A DNA stretch of 37,013 bases, taken from assembly GCA_944375745.1 (NCBI GenBank), contig CALWAV010000028.1:1-37013 (forward strand), written 5' to 3'. Within the stretch, counting starts at the first letter, position 1. Each line of letters starts with the position of its first letter. Below, piece by piece: positions 13,618-25,886 of this stretch. The position numbers and the translations under genes are program-made. The notes under the pieces are model-generated. The model was not told where the DNA came from. It did not search any database and worked only from the letters and a program-made list of their open reading frames with translations. This DNA comes from an uncultured Merdimonas sp. (GTDB taxonomy: Bacteria > Bacillota > Clostridia > Lachnospirales > Lachnospiraceae).

Positions 13618-15072
13618 TTACAGCTCCTGATTCATCTGATCCAGCAGGCCGGACTTAATCCGGAACAGCTTGTCTGAAAGATCCACATAGACCTCATGGG
13701 GATTCGTGAGACGTCTGGTCTCTTCCCAGAGGGTATCCTGCTCCTGAGTACAGTAATCCCGGATTTCCATGACGCTGGGAGAGGTGTAAACACACTCACC
13801 TTTCTGGAAGACGGGTACCAGCAGCTCCCGCATGTGGTAGGTGCCGCCCTTGAGCTTTGTCTTCTTCCAGGTCTCGATGGAGTCGAAGATCAGAAGATCC
13901 TGGGAGCAGTCGAAGGTTTCATCTGCCAGGGCAATCAGGTCCGCGCGGATCTTGCCGGTCTCGTTGTCATAGATTCGGAAGATGGTCTTGTTGCCCGGAT
14001 TGGTGATCTTCTCCGTGTTCTCGGAAAGCTTGATTTTCGGGACAAACTCTCCTTCCTCATCCTGCACTGCCGCCAGCTTATAGACACCGCCGAAGGCCGG
14101 GCAGTCGCTGGAGGTGATCATGTTTGTTCCTACGCCCCAGGAGGTGATAGCCGCGCCCTGATCCTTCAGGCTGGTGATCAGATATTCGTCCAGGTCGCTG
14201 GAGGCAGAGATAACTGCATCCGGAAAACCGGCTTCATCCAGCATTTTCCGAGCCTTCTTGGACATGTAGGCCAGGTCGCCGCTGTCCAGGCGGATGCCGT
14301 AGAAGGTCAGCGGGATGCCGGCCTCGCGCATCTCTGTGAAGACGCGGATGGCATTGGGAACGCCGGATTTCAGGGTGTCATAGGTGTCTACCAGCAGGAT
14401 GCAGGCATCCGGATACAGCTCAGAGTATTTCTTGAATGCGGTGTATTCATCCGGGAAGCTCATAATCCAGCTGTGGGCATGGGTTCCCTTGACAGGCACG
14501 TCAAAGAGCTGGCCGGCAAGAACATTGGAGGTGCCGATGCAGCCGCCGATCATGGCGGCGCGGGCGCCGTAGATGCCGGCGTCCGGGCCCTGGGCCCGGC
14601 GCAGGCCGAATTCCATGATGCCGTCCCCTTTGGCTGCGTGGACCACCCGGGCCGCCTTAGTGGCGATGAGGCTCTGATGGTTTACGATGGTCAGGATGGC
14701 TGTCTCCACAAGCTGGGCCTCCATAATCGGCGCAATGACCTTGAGCAGAGGCTCTCTGGGAAATACAACCGTGCCTTCCGGTATGGCGTAGATATCGCCG
14801 GAAAACCGGAAGCTGCTTAAGTAGTCCAGAAAATCCTCGTCAAACAGCTTCAGACTTCTCAGATATTCAATATCCTCCTTCTGGAAGGTCAGATTTTTGA
14901 TATAGTCAATGACCTGGTCAAGTCCTGCTGTGATGGCAAAGCCGCTGCCGGAAGGGTTCTTCCGGTAAAAGACATCGAAGACAACAGTTTCGTTGGTGTG
15001 GTTTTTGAAATAGCCCTGCATCATAGTCAGCTCATAGAGGTCTGTCAGCAGAGTCAGTCTCATGGTACTCAT
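13618..15072 (-). CDS. pncB: Nicotinate phosphoribosyltransferase
   Basis: A 484-residue enzyme that couples nicotinate and PRPP to nicotinate mononucleotide, the salvage entry to NAD. The N-terminus RLTLLTDLYELTMMQGYFKN and the strand blocks EFGLRRAQGPDA, GTHAHSWIMSFPDEY (catalytic His region), FYGIRLDSGDLAYMSKKAR and SWGVGTNMITS are typical of this family. The length fits the bacterial NAPRTase group. Two in-frame ATGs (15072 and 15063) are possible, and GGGAGCGG precedes both. It is transcribed alone from its own extended -10 promoter, divergent from the fatty-acid operon. Confidence 0.95.
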   Translation of the reverse strand: MSTMRLTLLTDLYELTMMQGYFKNHTNETVVFDVFYRKNPSGSGFAITAGLDQVIDYIKNLTFQKEDIEYLRSLKLFDEDFLDYLSSFRFSGDIYAIPEGTVVFPREPLLKVIAPIMEAQLVETAILTIVNHQSLIATKAARVVHAAKGDGIMEFGLRRAQGPDAGIYGARAAMIGGCIGTSNVLAGQLFDVPVKGTHAHSWIMSFPDEYTAFKKYSELYPDACILLVDTYDTLKSGVPNAIRVFTEMREAGIPLTFYGIRLDSGDLAYMSKKARKMLDEAGFPDAVISASSDLDEYLITSLKDQGAAITSWGVGTNMITSSDCPAFGGVYKLAAVQDEEGEFVPKIKLSENTEKITNPGNKTIFRIYDNETGKIRADLIALADETFDCSQDLLIFDSIETWKKTKLKGGTYHMRELLVPVFQKGECVYTSPSVMEIRDYCTQEQDTLWEETRRLTNPHEVYVDLSDKLFRIKSGLLDQMNQEL

Positions 15073-15092
15073 ATTTTTCCGCTCCCTTTGAA

Positions 15093-15141
15093 GGACAGAG
15101 AATGAGATGAAATAAAAAAGCTTCTGCCATTCTCCGGTCCG
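15093..15141 (-). promoter_or_regulatory. Hairpin in the pncB leader
   Basis: In the predicted leader of about 80 nt, GGACCGGAGAATG can pair with CATTCTCTGTCC (plus-strand positions 15129-15141 and 15093-15104) around a U-rich loop. The second arm ends about 20 nt before the start codon. It could influence translation. I do not recognise a known riboswitch. Confidence 0.4.
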
Positions 15142-15159
15142 ACATTTTTATTTCTTTAA

Positions 15160-15188
15160 AAGATAGCATATTTACAAAGAAATAACAA
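15160..15188 (-). promoter_or_regulatory. pncB promoter (extended -10)
   Basis: On the minus strand TTGTTA (15188-15183), a 17-bp spacer and TGC-TATCTT (-10 at 15165-15160). The TG one base upstream of the -10 box makes it an extended -10 promoter. Confidence 0.7.
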
Positions 15189-15267
15189 GAAAAACTGCTG
15201 GTTTTGGCGGGGTTTTGGCCTGGTATTTTGGTGGAATGGGAAGAAGTGGTGTTTTTTTCGAGAAACT
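15189..15267. other. Non-coding stretch upstream of the fab promoter, G/T-rich on the plus strand
   Basis: This spacer separates the pncB promoter from the fab promoter and holds no gene. From about 15196 to 15259 the plus strand is almost only G and T, with repeated GG-TTTT-GG units and one GGGG. Two-layer G-quadruplex folding is possible. I see no other signal here. Confidence 0.5.
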
Positions 15268-15320
15268 TGTTGACAAGTCAACATATTGGTGTTATTATCC
15301 AGCATGTTGATAAGTCAACA
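15268..15320 (+). promoter_or_regulatory. Fatty-acid operon promoter with two FabT-like operator palindromes
   Basis: TTGACA (15270-15275), a 17-bp spacer and TATTAT (15293-15298) form a strong sigma-A promoter. Operator 1, TGTTGACAAGTCAACA (15268-15283), has 7-bp perfect arms and covers the -35 box. Operator 2, TGTTGATAAGTCAACA (15305-15320), differs by one base and lies at the expected start site. The centres are 37 bp apart. The TTGA-N4-TCAA core resembles known FabT-type sites. The MarR-family protein at the operon's end is the likely ligand-sensing repressor. Confidence 0.8.
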
Positions 15321-15322
15321 AA

Positions 15323-15383
15323 TCCGCTGTGTGCAGCGGAGAGAAAATCAACAAAATAACTGGTGACCGCCGGGAGGCGGAAA
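15323..15383 (+). promoter_or_regulatory. fab operon leader with two short hairpins
   Basis: After the operators the leader holds TCCGCTG-TGTG-CAGCGGA (15323-15340), a perfect 7-bp hairpin, and CCGCC-GGGA-GGCGG (about 15368-15381). Neither is followed by a T-run. They may protect the 5' end of the mRNA. No known riboswitch pattern was recognised. Confidence 0.4.
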
Positions 15384-15411
15384 CGGAAGAACAAATCTGG
15401 AGGATTTTATC

Positions 15412-15642
15412 ATGGTATTTGAGACAATTGCAAAGCTGCTGGCAGACAGACTGGACTGTGAAGTATCTGAGATCAAGGCAGAGTCCACATTCCACGATCT
15501 GGGAATCGATTCCCTGGACACAGTAGATCTTCTGATGAACCTGGAAGACGAGCTGGGAATCAGCATCGAGCTGGACGAGAAGGTTGAGACTGTAGGAGAG
15601 CTGGCTGAGCTGGTTGAGAAGAAGCAGAAAGAGCAGCAGTAA
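15412..15642 (+). CDS. acpP: Acyl carrier protein
   Basis: A 76-residue acidic carrier protein of standard size. The phosphopantetheine attachment serine is S34 in the motif GIDSLDTVDLLMNLED. It carries the growing acyl chain between the enzymes encoded downstream. CTGGAGG precedes the ATG with 8 nt spacing. It is the first gene of the operon, where many related operons would begin with a MarR regulator and fabH; both are absent at this end. A structured intergenic element separates it from fabK, which could allow ACP to be made in excess. Confidence 0.97.
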   Translation: MVFETIAKLLADRLDCEVSEIKAESTFHDLGIDSLDTVDLLMNLEDELGISIELDEKVETVGELAELVEKKQKEQQ

Positions 15643-15666
15643 TTCCTGAATGACGAAAAGCGTAAG

Positions 15667-15758
15667 AAAGCGCCAGTGTATGGACAGCTTAGACCGGGGA
15701 ATCCCGGCAGCGGTTCCGGTTTCCCGGAGCCTGAATGAGGTCCATATGCCGGCGCTTT
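15667..15758 (+). promoter_or_regulatory. Structured intercistronic RNA element between acpP and fabK
   Basis: Three nested helices can be drawn. The outer stem pairs 15667-15685 with 15740-15758 (19 positions, one mismatch, two G-U). Inside lie CCGGG-GAAT-CCCGG (15694-15707) and GGTTCCGG-TTTC-CCGGAGCC (15712-15731). Only three Ts follow, so it is a poor terminator. Processing, mRNA stabilisation or partial attenuation are possible roles. The same bases also contain a 36-codon frame (ATG at 15650, TAG at 15758-15760) with no convincing ribosome site. Confidence 0.65.
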
Positions 15759-15779
15759 AGAAAGGAAAGGAAAATTGAT

Positions 15780-16724
15780 ATGATCCACACACCGATATGT
15801 GACATGCTGGGAATTCAGTATCCGGTATTTCAGGGCGGAATGGCATGGATAGCAGACGGCCGTCTGGCGGCGGCAGTGTCAAACGGCGGAGGCCTTGGCA
15901 TCGTGGCAGCGGGAAATGCTCCGGCTGACGTGGTGAGAGAAGAGATTCGTATTGCCAAGTCTCTGACTGATAAGCCTTTTGGCGTTAATATCATGCTGAT
16001 GAGTCCTTTTGCGGATGAAATCGCAGCACTTGTATGTGAAGAAAAGGTTGCCGTAGTGACCACAGGAGCCGGCAATCCTTCCAAATATATGAAAGCCTGG
16101 AAAGAGGCGGGAATCCATGTGATTCCGGTCGTTCCCTCCGTGGCCATGGCAAAACTGATGACAAGACTGGGAGCAAGCGCAGTCATTGCTGAGGGCGGTG
16201 AGAGCGGCGGACATGTGGGTGAACTGACTACCATGGTGCTGGTTCCCCTGGTATGTGACGCAACCGATCTTCCTGTTATCGCGGCAGGCGGTATCGCGGA
16301 CGGACGGGGCGTGGCAGCCTCCTTTATGCTGGGAGCCTGCGGCGTGCAGATGGGAACCCGTTTTCTGAGCGCTGAGGAATGCTCCATTCATCCCACCTAT
16401 AAGGATCGGATCCTTCATGCTACAGACCTGTGCACGACTGTGACAGGAAAGCGTCTGGGCCATCCGGTAAGAAGCCTGAGAACACAGTTTGCCCGTGATT
16501 ACACCAAGGCTGAGTACGGCGGAATGCCGGACGATGAGCTGGAGCAGCTTGGCGTAGGAGCCCTGAGAAAGGCCGTGAAGGAAGGCGATATGGAGAAGGG
16601 ATGCTTCCTGGCAGGCCAGGCAGCTGCCTTTGTAAAGAAGGAGCAGCCGGCAGCGGACATCGTCCGTGAGGTTATCGAGGAAGCAGAGCCGATTCTGAAA
16701 GGAGCCTGCAAATGGGTAAAATAG
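15780..16724 (+). CDS. fabK: Enoyl-ACP reductase II (FMN-dependent)
   Basis: A 314-residue TIM-barrel flavoprotein of the nitronate monooxygenase/FabK family that reduces trans-2-enoyl-ACP, the last step of each elongation round, with NAD(P)H. Key segments are YPVFQGGMAWIADGRLAAAV, the FMN phosphate-binding AAGGIADGRG, and AEGGESGGHVG with the family histidine H145. The start at 15780 follows AAAGGAAAGGA; the frame extends to 15735, but the extra residues fall in the hairpin region. FabK replaces FabI, which predicts low sensitivity to triclosan (known for FabK enzymes, not tested here). It overlaps fabD by 13 bp. Confidence 0.95.
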   Translation: MIHTPICDMLGIQYPVFQGGMAWIADGRLAAAVSNGGGLGIVAAGNAPADVVREEIRIAKSLTDKPFGVNIMLMSPFADEIAALVCEEKVAVVTTGAGNPSKYMKAWKEAGIHVIPVVPSVAMAKLMTRLGASAVIAEGGESGGHVGELTTMVLVPLVCDATDLPVIAAGGIADGRGVAASFMLGACGVQMGTRFLSAEECSIHPTYKDRILHATDLCTTVTGKRLGHPVRSLRTQFARDYTKAEYGGMPDDELEQLGVGALRKAVKEGDMEKGCFLAGQAAAFVKKEQPAADIVREVIEEAEPILKGACKWVK

Positions 16725-17641
16725 CATTTGTATTTTCCGGACAGGGAGCCCAGCATACCGGTATGGGCCAGGAGCTGTGTGAACAGGTTCCCGCGTCGGC
16801 TGAGGTTTTCCGGAAAGCGGACGCAGTCCGTCCGGGCACATCAGAACAGTGCTTTCACGGAAGCGATGAGCTCTTGAGCATTACGGAAAACACACAGCCC
16901 TGCCTGTTTTCCATGGAGATGGCAGCGGCAGCGGCTCTTACAGAGGCTGGCGTCCAGGCGGATATGGCTGCAGGATTTTCCCTGGGAGAGCTGAGCGCGC
17001 TGGCTTTCGCCGGAACGGCAGATTTTGATACCATGTTTTCTCTGGTATGCAGACGGGGAGAGCTGATGCAGAAAGCGGCAGAGGAGAATCCCGCATCCAT
17101 GGCAGCTGTGGTCAAGCTGACAGCAGAGCAGGTGGAAGAAGTCTGCGGAGGCTTTTCAGAGGTCTATCCGGTAAATTTCAACTGCCCGGGACAGGTATCC
17201 GTATCCGGAAAGGCGGAGGAGATGAAGTCCTTCGGTGAGGCAGTGAAAAGCGCCGGCGGAAGAATGATTCCCCTGAAGGTAAAGGGTGGGTTCCATTCTC
17301 CGTTTATGAAGACAGCGGCGGAGGCCTTTGAAGCAGAGCTTCAGAAGACAGAGCTTTCGGCGCCGGGACTTCCCGTTTATGCCAACAGAACAGCGCAGCC
17401 CTATCCCGGAAAGGGACAGGAGGCAGAGGTGAAGGAGCTCCTGGGCAGACAGATTGTATCTCCGGTGAAATGGGAGCAGACCATCCGGAATATGATTGCG
17501 GACGGAGCAGACACCTTTGTGGAAATCGGACCGGGAGACACTCTCTGCGGAATGATTAAGAGAATTGATAAGAATGTGAAGACCTTCGCCGTATCGGATA
17601 TGGCAGGTCTGGAAGCCGCGAAAGCCGGCATCCTGTCCTAG
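16712..17641 (+). CDS. fabD: Malonyl-CoA:ACP transacylase
   Basis: A 309-residue enzyme that moves malonyl from CoA to ACP. The N-terminus reads FVFSGQGAQHTGMGQELC. The nucleophile is S90 in AGFSLGELSAL, where the usual GHSxG histidine is replaced by Phe. The catalytic histidine H195 lies in KGGFHSPFMK. Both catalytic residues are present, so it should be active. It starts inside the end of fabK (13-bp overlap), so translation is coupled. After it comes a 62-bp gap with a weak GTCTCGG/CCGGGAC hairpin before fabG. Confidence 0.95.
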   Translation: MGKIAFVFSGQGAQHTGMGQELCEQVPASAEVFRKADAVRPGTSEQCFHGSDELLSITENTQPCLFSMEMAAAAALTEAGVQADMAAGFSLGELSALAFAGTADFDTMFSLVCRRGELMQKAAEENPASMAAVVKLTAEQVEEVCGGFSEVYPVNFNCPGQVSVSGKAEEMKSFGEAVKSAGGRMIPLKVKGGFHSPFMKTAAEAFEAELQKTELSAPGLPVYANRTAQPYPGKGQEAEVKELLGRQIVSPVKWEQTIRNMIADGADTFVEIGPGDTLCGMIKRIDKNVKTFAVSDMAGLEAAKAGILS

Positions 17642-17703: not shown

Positions 17704-18438
17704 ATGTTAAAAGGAAAGATCGCGATTGTGACGGGAGGTTCCCGGGGAATCGGAGCCGCGGTAGTGAAGGAACTGGCTGCAGGCGGCGCTGATGTGGCAG
17801 TCATCTATGCGGGAAACCGGGAGCTGGCAGAGCAGGTGTGCCAGGAGTGCAGGGATACCTACGGCGTGAGAGCCCAGAGCTACTGCTGCAATGTGGCTGA
17901 TTTTAACGCAGCCAAGGAGACAACCGCAAAAATCAAGGAAGATTTCGGAAAAGTGGATATCCTGGTGAACAACGCGGGAATCACAAGAGATAAGCTGATT
18001 CTCATGATGAAGGAAGAGGATTTCGACGCGGTTCTGGATACAAACCTGAAGGGAGCATTCAACATGATCCGTCATGTGAGCGGTCTTTTCATCCGCAATA
18101 AGGGCGGCAGGATTGTCAATGTGTCTTCCGTGGTAGGACTTCACGGAAACGCGGGCCAGGCTAATTACGCGGCGTCCAAGGCCGGAATCATCGGCCTGAC
18201 AAAATCCGTGGCAAAGGAGCTTGCAGGAAAAAATATTCTCTGCAATGCGGTTGCGCCGGGCTTTATCAGCACTGACATGACAAAGGAGCTGTCTGGAGCG
18301 GAAGAAGCCTGGATGAATATGATTCCGCTGGGACGGGCCGGAGCGCCGGAGGAAGTGGCGAAGGCGGTTGCGTTTCTGGCAGATACAGACTATATCACAG
18401 GTGAAGTGCTGCGCGTAGACGGCGGCATGGGGATGTAA
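17704..18438 (+). CDS. fabG: 3-oxoacyl-ACP reductase
   Basis: A 244-residue short-chain dehydrogenase that reduces 3-ketoacyl-ACP with NADPH. The cofactor loop is TGGSRGIGAAV (residues 10-20), the stabilising NNAG is at 89-92, and the catalytic triad is S142 (VNVSSVVG), Y155 and K159 (YAASK). A conserved C-terminal tail follows (TGEVLRVDGGMGM). GGAGG lies 7 nt before the ATG. It has the normal length and sits between fabD and fabF in the operon. Confidence 0.96.
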   Translation: MLKGKIAIVTGGSRGIGAAVVKELAAGGADVAVIYAGNRELAEQVCQECRDTYGVRAQSYCCNVADFNAAKETTAKIKEDFGKVDILVNNAGITRDKLILMMKEEDFDAVLDTNLKGAFNMIRHVSGLFIRNKGGRIVNVSSVVGLHGNAGQANYAASKAGIIGLTKSVAKELAGKNILCNAVAPGFISTDMTKELSGAEEAWMNMIPLGRAGAPEEVAKAVAFLADTDYITGEVLRVDGGMGM

Positions 18439-18452
18439 AGAGGAGTTAAGTT

Positions 18453-19694
18453 ATGAATCAGATAAATCGCAGAGTGGTAGTCACCGGACTTGGAGCTGTT
18501 TCCCCCGTGGGAAATGATGTGAAAACAAGCTGGGAAAATCTGATTTCCGGCGTACACGGAATCGGACCGATTACCCGTTTTGATACAACAGAATACAAGG
18601 CAAAGCTGGCGGCTGAGGTTAAGGATTTTGACGCCAGACAGTACATGGAAAAGGCAGAAATCTTAAGAAGCGATCTGTATGCTCAGTACGCGCTTGCCTC
18701 TGCCTGCCAGGCAATGGAGGAGAGCGGTATCGAGGGAACTGTGGATCCGGAGCGTTTTGCAGTATATTTTGGTTCCGGAATCGGCGGAATAGGTACCTTT
18801 ACCAGAGAGCACACGAAGCTTCTGGAGCGGGGACCGTCCAGAGTATCCCCGTATTTTATCCCGATGATGATCGCGAATATGGGAGCCGGTATGATCGCAA
18901 TCCGGTTTAACTGCCAGGGAGCAGCTCTTCCCGCAGTGACCGCCTGCGCTTCAGGTTCCAACGCTATCGGCGAGGCAGTCCGGGCAATTCGCCACGGCTA
19001 TGCGGACGCGGTGATTTCCGGCGGAGCTGAGGCGTCCATCAATGAGTGCGGCGTGGCAGGCTTCGTGAATATGAAAGCTCTGTCTGTGGCAGAGGATCCG
19101 GATGCGGCCTCCCTGCCCTTCGATAAGCGGCGCGCGGGCTTCGTCATCGGAGAGGGAGCGGCAGCCCTTGTACTGGAGGAGTATGAGCATGCGGTGAAGC
19201 GCGGCGCGAAGATCTATGGAGAGGTCTGCGGCTACGGTTCCACCTGTGACGCTTACCATATCACAGCGCCTCTTCCGGACGCGGCAGGCGGCGCGAGAGC
19301 CATGAAGCAGGCTCTTGAGGAAGCAGGTTATACCGGAGAGGAGACTCTCTACATCAACGCACACGGCACAGGAACGCCGCTGAACGACTCCGGCGAGACC
19401 ATCGCCATCAAGACCGCCCTGGGCGAGGAGAAGGCTCACGCTTCTTATGTAAGCTCCACCAAGTCCATGACGGGACATATGCTGGGTGCGGCAGGAGCCA
19501 TCGAGGCGATTGTCTGCCTGAAGGTTCTGGAGACGGGCATCATTCCGCCTACCATCAACCTGCTGGAGGCTGACCCGGACTGCGATCTGAACTATGTGCC
19601 GAACAAGGCTGTGAAGGCTGATATTGATCTGTGTCTTTCCAATTCTCTGGGATTTGGCGGACATAATGCGTGCCTTGCGTTTAGGAGGGTATAA
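18453..19694 (+). CDS. fabF: 3-oxoacyl-ACP synthase II
   Basis: A 413-residue elongating condensing enzyme. The catalytic triad is C165 (TACASGSNAIG), H304 (NAHGTGTPLNDSGE) and H342 (STKSMTGHMLGAAGA, with K337). It extends acyl-ACP with malonyl-ACP and is the only condensing enzyme in the window; no FabH is seen. In Clostridia without FabA or FabB, FabF can also support unsaturated fatty acid synthesis (known for a Clostridium FabF, inferred here). It lies 14 bp after fabG and 3 bp before accB. Confidence 0.96.
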   Translation: MNQINRRVVVTGLGAVSPVGNDVKTSWENLISGVHGIGPITRFDTTEYKAKLAAEVKDFDARQYMEKAEILRSDLYAQYALASACQAMEESGIEGTVDPERFAVYFGSGIGGIGTFTREHTKLLERGPSRVSPYFIPMMIANMGAGMIAIRFNCQGAALPAVTACASGSNAIGEAVRAIRHGYADAVISGGAEASINECGVAGFVNMKALSVAEDPDAASLPFDKRRAGFVIGEGAAALVLEEYEHAVKRGAKIYGEVCGYGSTCDAYHITAPLPDAAGGARAMKQALEEAGYTGEETLYINAHGTGTPLNDSGETIAIKTALGEEKAHASYVSSTKSMTGHMLGAAGAIEAIVCLKVLETGIIPPTINLLEADPDCDLNYVPNKAVKADIDLCLSNSLGFGGHNACLAFRRV

Positions 19695-19697
19695 GAG

Positions 19698-20207
19698 ATG
19701 AATGAAGCAGAGATCAGAAAATACGCTTCCCTGATGAGGGAACTGGATCTGACAGGAATAGAGATTGATGAGAGAAACGGAGTCATCCGTCTGGAGAGAG
19801 AGCCTGGCGGCTCTTTCCTTCAGGATACCGGCGCGGCGCCTGCCCCTGCGGCGGCAGCGCCGGCCTATACGGCTCCTAGCCCTGCGCCGGCAGAGGCGGC
19901 AGCGCCGGTTTCCGCAGCGCCGGCCGCAGGCGTGGAAACCGGCCTGGCGGCAGGCGAGATTCTGGAGAGTGTGACCTCTCCCACCGTAGGAATTTTCTAT
20001 GCGGCCCCGGCCGAGAACGCAGAGCCCTATGTAAAGGCCGGCGATACAGTACATAAGGGAGATGTGCTGTGCATCATCGAAGCCATGAAGCTGATGAATG
20101 AAGTTCTGGCGGAAAAGGACGGCGTGATTGAGGCTGTCTGCGTACAGAACGGCCAGGTAGTGGAATACGGAACCGAGCTGTTTAAGATAAAGGAGCTGAG
20201 CGCATGA
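19698..20207 (+). CDS. accB: Biotin carboxyl carrier protein of acetyl-CoA carboxylase
   Basis: A 169-residue protein. Residues 1-35 are a short N-terminal domain, residues about 40-80 an Ala/Pro-rich flexible linker (about half Ala), and residues about 90-168 the biotinyl domain, with the biotin-accepting K131 in IIEAMKLMNE. It carries CO2 from AccC to the AccDA transferase. The linker-coding DNA is very GC-rich and repetitive. The last bases overlap fabZ as ATGA, so the two genes are translationally coupled. Confidence 0.95.
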   Translation: MNEAEIRKYASLMRELDLTGIEIDERNGVIRLEREPGGSFLQDTGAAPAPAAAAPAYTAPSPAPAEAAAPVSAAPAAGVETGLAAGEILESVTSPTVGIFYAAPAENAEPYVKAGDTVHKGDVLCIIEAMKLMNEVLAEKDGVIEAVCVQNGQVVEYGTELFKIKELSA

Positions 20208-20629
20208 CAAAGGAAGAGATTAAGACAATTCTGCCCCACAGAGACGCCATGCTTCTTCTGGATGAGGTAGTTCAGGAAGAGGATACCGCGGTGGGAACCC
20301 TTCACATCAAGGGAGATGAGTGGTTTCTGCAGGGACATTTCCCCGGAAATCCTGTGGTGCCGGGCGTAATCCTCTGCGAGATTCTTGCCCAGTCCTCCTG
20401 CATCCTTCTGAAGGATGAGATGACAAAGGGAAAGCTTCCCATGTATACGGGAATGAACAATATAAAATTCCGTTCTCCGGTAAAGCCTGGAGATACGTTT
20501 ACCACCCGCTGCCGGATCAAACGGTCCAAGGGTCCTTTCTATTTCGCAGAGGGCAGCGGATATGTGGATGGAAAGCTCTGCGTGCAGGGCGAGTTTTCCT
20601 TTGCGATTGTGGCCCAGGAAAAGGCCTGA
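20204..20629 (+). CDS. fabZ: 3-hydroxyacyl-ACP dehydratase
   Basis: A 141-residue hot-dog-fold enzyme that removes water from 3-hydroxyacyl-ACP. The catalytic pair is H45 (GHFPGNPVVPG) and E59 (CEILAQSS). The N-terminal IKTILPHRDAMLLLDEV is typical of FabZ. Length is normal, and it starts in the ATGA overlap with accB. It is the only dehydratase here. No FabA, FabM or FabN is visible in the operon, so the route to unsaturated chains is not explained by this window. Confidence 0.95.
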   Translation: MTKEEIKTILPHRDAMLLLDEVVQEEDTAVGTLHIKGDEWFLQGHFPGNPVVPGVILCEILAQSSCILLKDEMTKGKLPMYTGMNNIKFRSPVKPGDTFTTRCRIKRSKGPFYFAEGSGYVDGKLCVQGEFSFAIVAQEKA

Positions 20630-20684: not shown

Positions 20685-21992
20685 ATGTTTACAAAGATAT
20701 TGATTGCCAACAGAGGCGAGATCGCCGTCCGGATTATCCGGGCCTGCAAGGAAATGGGCGTGGCGTCGGTGGCGGTGTATTCCGAGGCCGACCGGGAGAC
20801 CCTTCACACAGCCCTTGCGGATGAAAGCATCTGCATCGGTCCGGCGTCCGCGTCGGACAGTTATCTGAACGCGGAGCGAATCATCAGTGCGGCGCTGGCC
20901 ACGGGTGCGGCTGCCATCCACCCGGGCTACGGTTTTCTGTCCGAAAACCGGGATTTTGCGGAGCTTTGCGAGAAAAACGGCATTGCTTTCATCGGTCCCT
21001 CTGCTGAGACCATGAAGGCCTTGAGCGATAAGGCGGAGAGCAAGGCCATGATGAAAAAAGCAGGCCTTCCTGTCATTCCGGGCACAGAGGCCTTAAGCGG
21101 CCTGGAGGAAGCCCTAAAGGAAGCGGAGGCCATCGGCTATCCGGTAATGCTGAAAGCCCGTTCTGGCGGAGGCGGAAGAGGAATCCGTGTCATCCATACG
21201 CCGGAGGAACTGGAAAAGGCTTATGCCACAGCAGAGGCGGAGAGCAAGGCCGCTTTCGGAGACGGAGCCTTGTATCTGGAGAAATATATTTTCCCGGCCC
21301 GCCATATTGAGGTGCAGATTCTGGCGGACGAGGCCGGTCATGTACTCTGTCTCGGAGAGAGAGACTGCTCCGTGCAGAGAAATCATCAGAAGCTGATTGA
21401 GGAATCCCCCTCTCCCGCAGTGGATGAGGAGGCGAGAAAACGGCTGATTGCCCTGGTGCGTGAGGCCGTGCCGAAGATTGGATATACAGGAGCGGGAACG
21501 CTGGAGTTTCTTCTGGATCCCCAGGGAAATTTCTGGTTTATGGAGATGAATCTGAGACTTCAGGTGGAACACGGCGTGACGGAGATGCTCACCAATGTGG
21601 ATCTGGTCAAATGGCAGATCCGCATCGCGGCGGGAATCGAGCTGAAGCAGAAGCAGGAAGAGATTTCCATGAACGGCTCCTGCATCGAGTGCCGCATTAA
21701 TGCCCGTTCCACAGGAAAAATTACAGCCCTTCATGTGCCGGGAGGCCCCTTTGTGCGTTTTGACACCTATCTGGTACGGGGAGTGGAGATTACGCCCTTC
21801 TATGATCCGCTGCTTGGCAAGCTGATTGTCTATGCCGGAACCCGGGAAGAGGCTGTACGGAAGATGAAGGCGGCTCTGTGCGAACTGGTCATCGAGGGAG
21901 TGGATACCAACCTGGAGGAACAGTTTGATTTGGTCAATGATCCGGAGTTTGCTGACGGAACCTATGATTTACGCTTTATGGAAAGCAGGTGA
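20685..21992 (+). CDS. accC: Biotin carboxylase subunit of acetyl-CoA carboxylase (variant)
   Basis: A 435-residue ATP-grasp enzyme that carboxylates the biotin of AccB. The N-terminal KILIANRGEIAVRIIRACKE, the GYGFLSEN block, the glycine-rich ATP loop (KARSGGGGRG, 157-166), EMNLRLQVEHGVTE (287-300) and ECRINA (335-340) are recognisable. It departs from usual AccC at several places. The E-D-P-...-P-S-P-G loop after ECRINA is shortened to ARSTGKI. NTRxQVEHPVTE reads NLRLQVEHGVTE. QRRxQK reads QRNHQK. The acidic, Arg and Gln catalytic positions I can place are kept, so activity is likely but should not be assumed. A good ribosome site (GGGAGGAG) precedes the ATG. Confidence 0.93.
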   Translation: MFTKILIANRGEIAVRIIRACKEMGVASVAVYSEADRETLHTALADESICIGPASASDSYLNAERIISAALATGAAAIHPGYGFLSENRDFAELCEKNGIAFIGPSAETMKALSDKAESKAMMKKAGLPVIPGTEALSGLEEALKEAEAIGYPVMLKARSGGGGRGIRVIHTPEELEKAYATAEAESKAAFGDGALYLEKYIFPARHIEVQILADEAGHVLCLGERDCSVQRNHQKLIEESPSPAVDEEARKRLIALVREAVPKIGYTGAGTLEFLLDPQGNFWFMEMNLRLQVEHGVTEMLTNVDLVKWQIRIAAGIELKQKQEEISMNGSCIECRINARSTGKITALHVPGGPFVRFDTYLVRGVEITPFYDPLLGKLIVYAGTREEAVRKMKAALCELVIEGVDTNLEEQFDLVNDPEFADGTYDLRFMESR

Positions 21993-23760: not shown

Positions 23761-25407
23761 ATGAGTATCATTCAGAACTTTTATAAAGAAACCATTGATG
23801 AGAACGGGTGCCTCACAGACATTGAGACACACTGGCCGGAAAACTTTAATTTCGGTTATGACGTGGTAGACGCCATCGCGGAGGAAGAGCCGGAAAAGCG
23901 CGCTCTTGTATGGTGCAATACGGAAAACGAGGAGCACATTTTCACCTTCGCGGATATCCGGGAGCAGAGCAACCGGGCAGCAAACGCCCTTTTGAAAGCC
24001 GGAATCAAAAAAGGAGACCGGGTCATCCTGGCCCTGAAGCGCCATTATGAATACTGGTTCGTCTCCGTGGCTCTTCACAAAATCGGCGCAATCATGATTC
24101 CGGTGACACATATGCTGACTACAGAGGATTTCATCTACCGGATCCGCAGTGCGAAGGTAAACGCGGTTATCTGCACCCCCATGGACGGAGTGCCGGGGAA
24201 GGTCAGAAAGGCTGTGGAAGAACTGAAGGCAGACTGCAGGCTTTGGACAGTGAAGGAGACCATAGAGGGCTTCGAGAATTTTACGGAGGCCTGTGAAGCG
24301 GCTTCTCCCGAACTGGAGAGACAGGAGACAAAGGCTTCGGATCCCATGGTGATGTATTTTACTTCCGGAACCTCCGGTTATCCCAAAGGAGTCATCCACG
24401 ATTTCACCTATCCGCTGGCGCATTATGTGACGGCGAAATACTGGCAGCAGGCAGAGGATGGAGGCCTTCATTTTACCATCTCTGAGACCGGCTGGGCCAA
24501 GGCTTCCTGGGGTAAGATTTACGGACAGTGGATTGTGGGCGCCGCGGTTATGGTTTATGATTTTGACAACTTTGAGCCCAAGCAGTTGGCGGCTGTCATC
24601 AATAAATATGGCGTGACCTCTTTCTGCGCGCCGCCTACGGTTTACCGTTATCTGACGAGGAAGGACTCTCCGGCGGTTCCAAGCGTGAAGCATGCAGTGA
24701 CGGCCGGCGAGTATTTAAGCCCGGAGGTATTTGAAAAATTCAGGGAGCAGACAGGGCTCACTCTCCGGGAAGGCTATGGCCAGACTGAGACAACCCTTCT
24801 TCTGGCAAATTTCCGGGACGCTGACTCACGGGCCGGCTCTCTTGGAAAGCCCTCTCCCATGTACCACATTGAGCTTCTCGGAAAGGACGGAAAGCCCGTT
24901 CCGGACGGAGAGATCGGAGAGGTCTGCGTGGTGCCGAAAGACGGGAAGCGTCCGCTGGGTGTCTTCTGTGCCTACCTCGACAATGAGGAGCGGTATCAGG
25001 AGGTCTGGAGAGGCGGCGTATACCATACGGGAGACGCGGTCTGGAGAGACGAGGACGGATATTTCTGGTTCCACGGACGTTTCGATGATATCATTAAGAC
25101 AGGCGGCTTCCGTGTGGGCCCCTACGAGGTGGAAAATGTACTGATGAAGCATCCGGCTGTGGCCGAGTGCAGCGTCATCGGTGTTCCCGACAAGCTCCGT
25201 GGCCAGGCTATCAAGGCAGTTATTGTGCTGGCGCCCGGCTATGAGCCGTCCAGGCAGCTGGACAAGGAGATCAGAGAGTTCTGCAATTCGGAGCTGGCTG
25301 AGTATAAATGGGTGCGTCTGATTGAGTTTGTGGATGAGATGCCAAAGACCATCAGCGGAAAGATCAGAAAGGCCAGACTTCGCGAGGAAAGCGCGAAAGC
25401 GGTATGA
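23761..25407 (+). CDS. Acyl-CoA synthetase (AMP-forming, ACSM/medium-chain-like)
   Basis: A 548-residue adenylate-forming ligase. It has the P-loop-like YFTSGTSGYPKG (199-210), the GWAKASWGKIYGQW gate block, YGQTET, HTGDAVWRDEDGYFWFHGR, DDIIKTGGFRVGPYEVE, and the catalytic lysine K534 in KTISGKIRK. The gate block is closest to the medium-chain acyl-CoA synthetase (ACSM/MbcS) group, so a short, branched or medium-chain fatty acid is the likely substrate; this is family inference. It overlaps the MarR gene by ATGA and is the tenth gene of the fatty-acid operon. It may activate exogenous acids for use or priming. It could also supply the acyl-CoA effector sensed by the regulator. Confidence 0.9.
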   Translation: MSIIQNFYKETIDENGCLTDIETHWPENFNFGYDVVDAIAEEEPEKRALVWCNTENEEHIFTFADIREQSNRAANALLKAGIKKGDRVILALKRHYEYWFVSVALHKIGAIMIPVTHMLTTEDFIYRIRSAKVNAVICTPMDGVPGKVRKAVEELKADCRLWTVKETIEGFENFTEACEAASPELERQETKASDPMVMYFTSGTSGYPKGVIHDFTYPLAHYVTAKYWQQAEDGGLHFTISETGWAKASWGKIYGQWIVGAAVMVYDFDNFEPKQLAAVINKYGVTSFCAPPTVYRYLTRKDSPAVPSVKHAVTAGEYLSPEVFEKFREQTGLTLREGYGQTETTLLLANFRDADSRAGSLGKPSPMYHIELLGKDGKPVPDGEIGEVCVVPKDGKRPLGVFCAYLDNEERYQEVWRGGVYHTGDAVWRDEDGYFWFHGRFDDIIKTGGFRVGPYEVENVLMKHPAVAECSVIGVPDKLRGQAIKAVIVLAPGYEPSRQLDKEIREFCNSELAEYKWVRLIEFVDEMPKTISGKIRKARLREESAKAV

Positions 25408-25859
25408 GAGAAAGATTTGAGCTTTTTACAATAGCGGTAACACGCGCGTATAAGTATATTCAGCAAATCAAGAAGCATGAAAGCGTCACCTTCGGGATCA
25501 AGGGCATTCATGTCATGTGTATGGTGGCCCTTGGAAAGAGCCCGGAGGGACTGACAGTGACGGAAATCGCTTCTTACTGCTGCGAGGATAAGGCCGCTGT
25601 TTCAAGAACAGTGGACAGCCTCGCGGAAAAGGGATACGTGGAGTACGAGGAAGCGCAGGGCAGACGGCGGTGGCGGTCCAAGGTAAGACTCACAGAGGAA
25701 GGCCGGAAGGTCACGGAAGGACTGGACGGGCTGATAGATGAGATTGTGGGTCAGATTAAAGGCAGCCTTACCACGGAGCAGGAAGCGTTCTTTTACCGTG
25801 TATTTTCCATTATCAATGACAGACTTGCAGAGTATTGTGAAAAGCTGGAAACGAGATAG
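25404..25859 (+). CDS. MarR-family regulator, FabT-like
   Basis: A 151-residue winged-helix protein with the MarR layout. An N-terminal dimer helix (1-30) is followed by the recognition segment LTVTEIASYCCEDKAAVSRT (about 51-70), the wing EAQGRRRWRSKVRLTEEG and C-terminal dimer helices. Its start overlaps the stop of the acyl-CoA synthetase gene (ATGA). As the last gene of the fatty-acid operon it would be under its own feedback. By analogy with FabT it likely binds the paired palindromes at the fab promoter with acyl-ACP or acyl-CoA as effector. That link is inferred, not shown. In many relatives fabT opens the operon, so the 3'-terminal position is uncommon. Confidence 0.87.
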   Translation: MRERFELFTIAVTRAYKYIQQIKKHESVTFGIKGIHVMCMVALGKSPEGLTVTEIASYCCEDKAAVSRTVDSLAEKGYVEYEEAQGRRRWRSKVRLTEEGRKVTEGLDGLIDEIVGQIKGSLTTEQEAFFYRVFSIINDRLAEYCEKLETR

Positions 25860-25886
25860 AAGATATCCCGTTTCCAGCTTTTTTTG
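25841..25886 (+). terminator. Terminator of the fatty-acid operon
   Basis: AAAGCTGGAAACG (25841-25853) pairs with CGTTTCCAGCTTT (25869-25881), followed by TTTTT. The left arm lies inside the last codons of the MarR gene, so the coding end and the terminator are shared. Confidence 0.92.

Follow-up and report, generated by a model that had tools for sequence, protein, structure and literature searches.

How is fatty-acid synthesis controlled in the Lachnospiraceae, which are common gut anaerobes? The top-ranked literature results contained no description of how these bacteria regulate the operon concerned. The window analysed here, a 37-kb stretch of DNA taken as a whole, raises the question in concrete form: two palindromes, O1 and O2, lie on the promoter of a fatty-acid synthesis (fab) operon whose last gene, marR, encodes a MarR-family protein. 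Our main reading, to which we give a probability of roughly 0.85, is that O1 and O2 are operators of this protein, which would close a feedback loop on its own operon.

Two palindromes on the promoter of a fab operon

A first-pass annotation had described two near-identical palindromes at the fab promoter, one overlapping the -35 box and the other at the predicted transcription start, and had seen the word nowhere else in the window. These observations were borne out (Table 1). O1 and O2 are 37 bp apart from start to start, with 21 bp intervening, and the core GTTGA-N4-TCAAC occurs in the 37 kb at these two places only. TTGACA and TATTAT, separated by 17 bp, together match 11/12 positions of the sigma-70 consensus, and no promoter-like match inside the operon exceeded 9/12. 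The best promoter for the genes from acpP to marR is the one that carries O1 and O2. Transcription is expected to start 7 nt after a -10 hexamer, and the position obtained in this way, about 15305, is the first base of O2. In the genome to which the window belongs, a 2.64-Mb draft that is 83% complete and could have missed further copies, TGTTGA-N4-TCAACA was found exactly at two places, O1 and O2. Two further places appeared at one mismatch; a reversed control gave one place at up to one mismatch.

The operon comprises 11 co-directional genes, acpP-fabK-fabD-fabG-fabF-accB-fabZ-accC-accDA-acyl-CoA ligase-marR, with intergenic gaps of at most 92 bp. As had been noted at first pass, the MarR gene ends the operon; its first 4 nt are shared with the end of the ligase gene, and behind it lies a terminator-like hairpin. 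The operon contains no fabH, and a sub-cut-off fragment matching the fabH model lies at a contig end elsewhere in the genome.

Table 1. Positions of the promoter elements, genes and terminator-like hairpin of the fab operon in the window.
Feature	Position	Strand	Basis or remark
Putative operator O1, TGTTGACAAGTCAACA	15268..15283	+	TTGACA within it doubles as -35 box; conserved in 8/8 same-genus genomes with near-identical fabK
-35 hexamer TTGACA	15270..15275	+	Inside O1; 11/12 sigma-70 match jointly with -10
-10 hexamer TATTAT, preceded by TG	15293..15298	+	Between O1 and O2; sigma-70 match
Putative operator O2, TGTTGATAAGTCAACA	15305..15320	+	At predicted transcription start
acpP, acyl carrier protein, 76 aa	15412..15642	+	Family profile match
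fabK, enoyl-ACP reductase II	15735..16724	+	TIGR03151 over cut-off
fabD, malonyl-CoA:ACP transacylase	16712..17641	+	TIGR00128 over cut-off
fabG, 3-oxoacyl-ACP reductase	17704..18438	+	TIGR01830 over cut-off
fabF, ketoacyl-ACP synthase II	18453..19694	+	TIGR03150 over cut-off
accB, biotin carboxyl carrier protein	19698..20207	+	TIGR00531 over cut-off
fabZ, 3-hydroxyacyl-ACP dehydratase	20204..20629	+	Family profile match
accC, biotin carboxylase	20685..21992	+	Family profile match
accDA, fused accD-accA carboxyltransferase, 586 aa	21997..23757	+	Pfam ACCA and Carboxyl_trans
Acyl-CoA synthetase (ligase)	23761..25407	+	Best NCBIfam match MbcS, below its cut-off
marR, MarR-family protein, 151 aa, proposed repressor acting at O1/O2	25404..25859	+	Pfam MarR_2; operator association of homologues
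Terminator-like hairpin and U-run after marR	25839..25883	+	Folding -25.8 kcal/mol; absent from the list of a simple terminator scan

An mRNA starting at 15305 would begin with a 6-bp stem and a 4-nt loop, so O2, instead of being an operator, might serve as a 5′ hairpin that guards the long fab mRNA. We consider this highly improbable, since O1, which lies before the start, retains these half-sites as well, the word is preserved in the DNA of other genera at loci with one site only, and no Rfam match was found in the leader (15000-16000). For lack of an Rfam match there, a known RNA element was also rejected.

Two features of the operon deserve mention in their own right. A very stable hairpin (15667-15757) lies between acpP and fabK, where 15640-15770 folds at -57.1 kcal/mol (z -5.95). 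It is single-copy in its own genome and its start is also present in the genus genome G010; the acpP-fabK gap measures 30-45 bp in L086-L090, which come from genus genomes with readable gene ends. Its role may be in processing or stabilisation, with more ACP made as a result. The accDA reading frame may be a genuine fusion or an artefact of assembly: accD and accA are two adjacent genes in the five nearest complete operons (L085-L089), and L100-L102 carry one long accD-accA gene like that of the window.

The putative operator pair in close relatives and in control operons

Among named records, the closest are those of uncultured Merdimonas, Candidatus Merdisoma and Lachnoclostridium sp. An131 and An138. 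A MarR orthologue is present in 7/16 same-genus genomes, counting the window's own. We searched for the operator in 12 of the 16 (all but G007, G012, G013 and G014). All eight genomes with a FabK at least 94% identical, again including the window's own, have both sites, 37 bp apart, in front of acpP and lack the exact 16-mer elsewhere; in the remaining four (G002, G004, G005 and G006) no exact 16-mer was found. In one of the eight, G009, the contig stops in fabD, and its marR is therefore out of view. In an alignment of seven of the promoters, the half-sites of O1 and O2 and much of the -10 region were kept and the DNA upstream of O1 had diverged; the eighth promoter, that of G010, was examined separately.

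Conservation of the palindromes upstream of acpP in close relatives had been named at first pass as one of the points on which the proposal would stand or fall. It held in all seven other genus genomes with near-identical fabK and in the more distant SUG126, and did not extend to G004 and G006, in which a related fab operon (FabK 78-79% identical) lacks both marR and the palindromes. SUG126 was picked solely for its MarR protein (64% identical), from an initial stretch that began inside acpP. The only exact 16-mer of its genome stands directly before acpP, with a one-mismatch copy 37 bp away, and the pair surrounds TTGACA-17-TATAAT. Sites 37 bp apart before acpP are what a repressor-operator relationship predicts, and the SUG126 pair matches this prediction at the level of sequence.

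Twelve other fab operons, from the genus or the family, served as controls, and none had a core with fewer than two mismatches between 500 bp before acpP and the end of acpP. Ten of them belong to genomes without marR (no match at E 1e-10) and two to genomes with a homologue elsewhere (G057 and G080); in L091, L096 and L097 the operon end lies beyond the end of the contig or stretch. In both G057 and G080 the MarR homologue is near a Fe-alcohol dehydrogenase (Fe-ADH) gene, the operator is present there, and the fab operon is without the core. Presence of the regulator thus need not entail control of fab, and its connection with fab seems characteristic of the clade to which the window belongs.

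The genus contains several kinds of fab operon (L100-L102, L085-L094): the window type, the related type with FabK 78-79% identical, and one with FabK only about 57% identical. A genome of another genus, G028, has two fabK genes (78% and 57%). Such variety within the genus suggests replacement of the fatty-acid synthesis operon.

A MarR subfamily travels with the putative operator word

The MarR fold of the window protein is not in doubt: it scores 41.0 bits against PF12802 (cut-off 27) and 25.4 bits against PF01047 (cut-off 24.6). We built a profile (A1) from 26 homologue rows, 15 of which came from loci found via the paired motif. The profile gave one match in each of 40/397 Lachnospiraceae genomes. 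Removal of the case itself (G000 and G011) left 38 loci, all outside the genus, and 29 of these have the exact core GTTGA-N4-TCAAC within 1 kb upstream, at 45 sites. The exact core was absent from the remaining 281 kb of the 38 loci; upstream, none of 29 permuted half-sites and no other spacer between 0 and 9 occurred in any of the 38. Five more loci have the core with one mismatch. The last four have none at up to one mismatch, and all four are among the seven weakest profile matches. When only the 17 loci chosen via the protein profile were counted, nine had the exact core and 14 a core at up to one mismatch (G231, one of these 17, has a paired core elsewhere in its genome). Distant genomes found with the MarR protein P0001 alone carried the motif in 7/8 cases.

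The reverse search gave a consistent picture. Two cores 10-40 bp apart were found in 27/397 Lachnospiraceae genomes, and a reversed control pattern in none. The MarR profile matched in 20 of these 27 genomes versus 20/370 others, an association partly affected by the motif-derived rows of A1. Among the 27 paired-core loci (L058-L084), 17 have a MarR gene by BLAST within a 3-kb stretch, two are fab operons (G011 and the window) and eight are neither; two of the eight are cases in which the pair and the MarR gene are apart (G231 and G032, see below).

These counts bear on whether the palindromes might serve another MarR-family regulator of the cell, for example one of efflux, with the operon's MarR acting elsewhere. 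Seven of the 27 paired-core genomes have no match to the MarR profile, some of their pairs stand before MFS or MATE genes (L058, L064), and the window's own genome has other MarR-like genes, with weak FabT-model matches at seven places. The motif is thus not private to the subfamily, and other MarR proteins could bind it. We nevertheless give this alternative only a slim chance: presence of the subfamily predicts the motif (29/38 loci), the 12 other fab operons lack it, and a second site in the genus stands at the same genes that adjoin MarR in other genera. Taken together, the comparative data strongly support the identity of O1 and O2 as operators, the operon's MarR as their probable cognate regulator and the closed feedback that had been suggested at first pass.

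The pairs before transporter genes are of interest by themselves. Paired GTTGA-N4-TCAAC, 31-37 bp apart, precedes an MFS gene in L058 and a MATE gene in L064 (Pfam assignments); in L065 and L076 a MATE-like transporter follows the paired sites, by reading of the sequence alone.

In a tree of 44 homologues the window's clade grouped with SUG126 (support 100/99), and the fab label required three changes, which means that fab linkage was gained or lost repeatedly; the tree omits L168, a partial match, and long branches leave parts of it uncertain.

The upstream site doubles as the -35 box

Pairs outside the genus (n=17) are spaced at 36 (1), 37 (9), 38 (4), 43 (2) and 46 (1) bp, and 12 of the 29 exact-core loci have a single site only. 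GTTGA is followed by C, which yields TTGAC, in 17/17 upstream sites versus 3/17 downstream sites (Fisher p for the comparison of paired loci takes related loci as independent). A -10-like hexamer (at least 4/6) lies 17 bp downstream of the -35 in 16/17 pairs and 18 bp downstream in one, when the best of spacers 15-19 is taken. The dual use of O1, as putative operator and as -35 box, is visible in this comparison.

A -35 box and its start site lie about 37 bp apart, which accounts for the spacing of O1 and O2 without looping. The first-pass annotation had pointed out that 37 bp corresponds to 3.5 helical turns and had raised the possibility of a loop. Could the spacing itself be functional, with dimers that interact by DNA looping or stacking and repress cooperatively? 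It is 36-38 bp in 14/17 non-genus pairs and 37 bp in eight genus genomes, as such interaction would predict. We consider it unlikely, since 43, 43 and 46 bp in three loci mean an altered helical phase, a good part of the exact-core loci have one site only, and the distance fits that from -35 to start, with the 17-bp promoter spacer nearly constant. A loop of 37 bp is also physically implausible, being far below the bending length of DNA. Looping, or cooperation specific to one DNA face, was rejected as the main account given the range of spacings across lineages and the share of single-site loci.

Neighbouring genes and a probable second target

We assigned the neighbours of marR in the 38 loci by BLAST to examples named by Pfam. 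Probable lipid genes (Fe-ADH, DegV, choloylglycine-hydrolase-family and fab) adjoin MarR in 31/38 loci, and none of these kinds was found in the other seven. The most frequent neighbour is Fe-ADH (19/38), with an aldehyde dehydrogenase behind it in 16 of the 19. A DegV/FakB-type protein is adjacent in eight loci and a choloylglycine-hydrolase-family gene in three, one of which also has Fe-ADH. Fab genes adjoin MarR in two loci, as accC-accDA-fabZ-marR (G429) and marR-fabK-fabD (G290). The promoter of the latter (L166) carries ATTGA-N4-TCAAT with a degenerate partner 43 bp upstream, and by its sequence G290 is a second FabT-like arrangement, similar in layout with a changed word.

The genome scan for the 16-bp word proposed at first pass yielded, besides the two exact copies on the fab promoter, a second candidate target. 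TTTTGA-N4-TCAACA, with one mismatch, stands 71-107 bp before Fe-ADH in 8/8 pair-bearing genus genomes; in the window's own genome this is the one-mismatch place on contig C1, and its conservation speaks against a chance origin. The genus Fe-ADH is 58-61% identical to that of L061, and an aldehyde dehydrogenase follows it in seven of the eight genomes (the eighth contig ends inside Fe-ADH). The other one-mismatch place of the own genome is on C26 and was seen in L004. Across the 12 genus genomes there are many other one-mismatch places, and the reversed control matched in 8/12, so that lone one-mismatch sites mean little. With the Fe-ADH site kept in the genus and MarR beside Fe-ADH in half of the loci outside it, the target seems to have been retained while marR now lies in the fab operon.

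Action in trans is also suggested by two other genomes. G231 has its paired core before Fe-ADH, on another contig than its MarR gene, and G032 has one before a choloylglycine-hydrolase-family gene, likewise on another contig than MarR. The lipid role of Fe-ADH and aldehyde dehydrogenase is a presumed one. Choloylglycine-hydrolase-family proteins are also encoded downstream of a paired operator in L063 and L067; it would be interesting if an N-acyl amide or bile-salt hydrolase were lipid-controlled.

Proposed mechanism

A MarR dimer on O1 would hide the -35 box, itself part of the operator, and a dimer on O2 would cover the start site. Either bound dimer would block RNA polymerase, and both together would give tighter or graded repression; a graded response by two independently bound dimers is possible. 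Because marR is at the end of the mRNA, the circuit would be autoregulated: as the last gene on the transcript it represses, its product would rise and fall together with the enzymes. The Fe-ADH and aldehyde dehydrogenase operon is probably under the control of this MarR too, in trans.

Binding might be tuned by a lipid, be it acyl-ACP, acyl-CoA, a free fatty acid or a fatty aldehyde. The ligand is a guess, for which the neighbouring genes suggest a fatty acyl or fatty aldehyde compound; of the regulators considered below, FapR has malonyl-CoA as its ligand and FabT has acyl-ACP as co-repressor. Instead of acyl thioesters, MarR might sense redox stress or electrophiles such as aldehydes, and turn on fatty-acid genes upon membrane damage. 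A cysteine at position 39 of P0001, which also has C59 and C60, is kept in 19/26 homologues, Fe-ADH and aldehyde dehydrogenase could remove aldehydes, and MexR, whose operator is the most similar, is redox-controlled. Set against this, the cysteine is missing in 4/5 DegV-linked A1 rows (L080 has it) and in L078, L083 and L016, whose loci carry the operator core, and DegV/FakB, fab and acyl-CoA ligase neighbours suit a lipid ligand better. We regard stress sensing as unlikely.

On balance we lean slightly towards a broader interpretation of the comparative data, in which a lipid-sensing MarR subfamily of the Lachnospiraceae uses a GTTGA-N4-TCAAC code whose upstream copy is the -35 box. Its targets would differ between genera and include genes for making fatty acids, for FakB-type fatty-acid binding, for fatty aldehyde/alcohol dehydrogenases and for N-acyl amide hydrolase-like proteins; in the window's clade it would have moved into and taken over the fab operon with its Fe-ADH target kept, a rewiring of the regulon. 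The subfamily would then offer a natural case of regulator recruitment, beside Fe-ADH in many loci and inside the fab operon in this clade, and an operator embedded in the -35 box across many genera. A regulator with so clean and computable an operator allows its targets to be read from genomes.

Comparison with known systems

Among top-ranked results, with subscription literature largely outside their range, we found nothing on this MarR subfamily, on the N4 operator or on how fab is regulated in these genera. FapR is reported to exert feedback control of fatty-acid synthesis in Bacillus and other Gram-positive bacteria (PMC5052256). Feedback on fatty-acid synthesis is the shared trait, but FapR belongs to another protein family.

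MexR of Pseudomonas aeruginosa is a MarR-family repressor with two sites of inverted GTTGA pairs that overlap promoters (PMC9892617). Its half-sites, of those seen in print, are the most similar to ours, and its paired sites likewise lie on promoters. It differs in the spacer, which is 5 in the printed PII oligonucleotide and 4 in the window, and in controlling an efflux operon rather than fatty-acid synthesis. GTTGA-N5-TCAAC was found in 0/38 homologue loci, neither the MexR site nor the efflux target applies to the fab operon, and the MexR structure entry 1lnw matched the subfamily profile with E 2.3e-7, a distant similarity.

A close parallel is FabT of the Lactobacillales (Streptococcus, Enterococcus, Lactococcus), a MarR-family regulator in the fab operon that it controls, with its gene at the operon start (PMC13046290). 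In S. pyogenes the FabT regulon includes the DegV protein FakB4, and the FabT site was probed as ANTTTGATTATCAAATT, that is TTTGA-N3-TCAAA (PMC10138225). The window has in common with FabT a marR gene inside the fab operon, palindromic operators at the promoter and DegV links, with control by MarR deduced here. On the other hand, fabT is the first gene and the window's marR the last, and TTTGA-N3-TCAAA differs from GTTGA-N4-TCAAC; GTTGA with a spacer of 3 was found in 0/38 homologue loci. Filing the window protein under FabT was rejected on account of the operator.

Protein models gave a less decisive answer. The FabT model NF050133 (cut-off 200 bits) was not among the eight matches of the window MarR at E 0.001, but 14 control genomes including Lactococcus lactis also fell below the cut-off, which makes the model too strict to rule out a FabT-like protein; scores were 22.7-25.0 bits for the orthologues of three genus genomes and 55.4 for the best protein of eight genomes. 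When the subfamily profile was compared with solved structures, 6jbx, which we take to be pneumococcal FabT, ranked 53 among the best 60 of 71 matches, behind SlyA, MepR and TcaR entries. On present sequence comparisons, the system in the window is best described as control in the manner of FabT, exerted by a different branch of MarR proteins through an operator code of its own.
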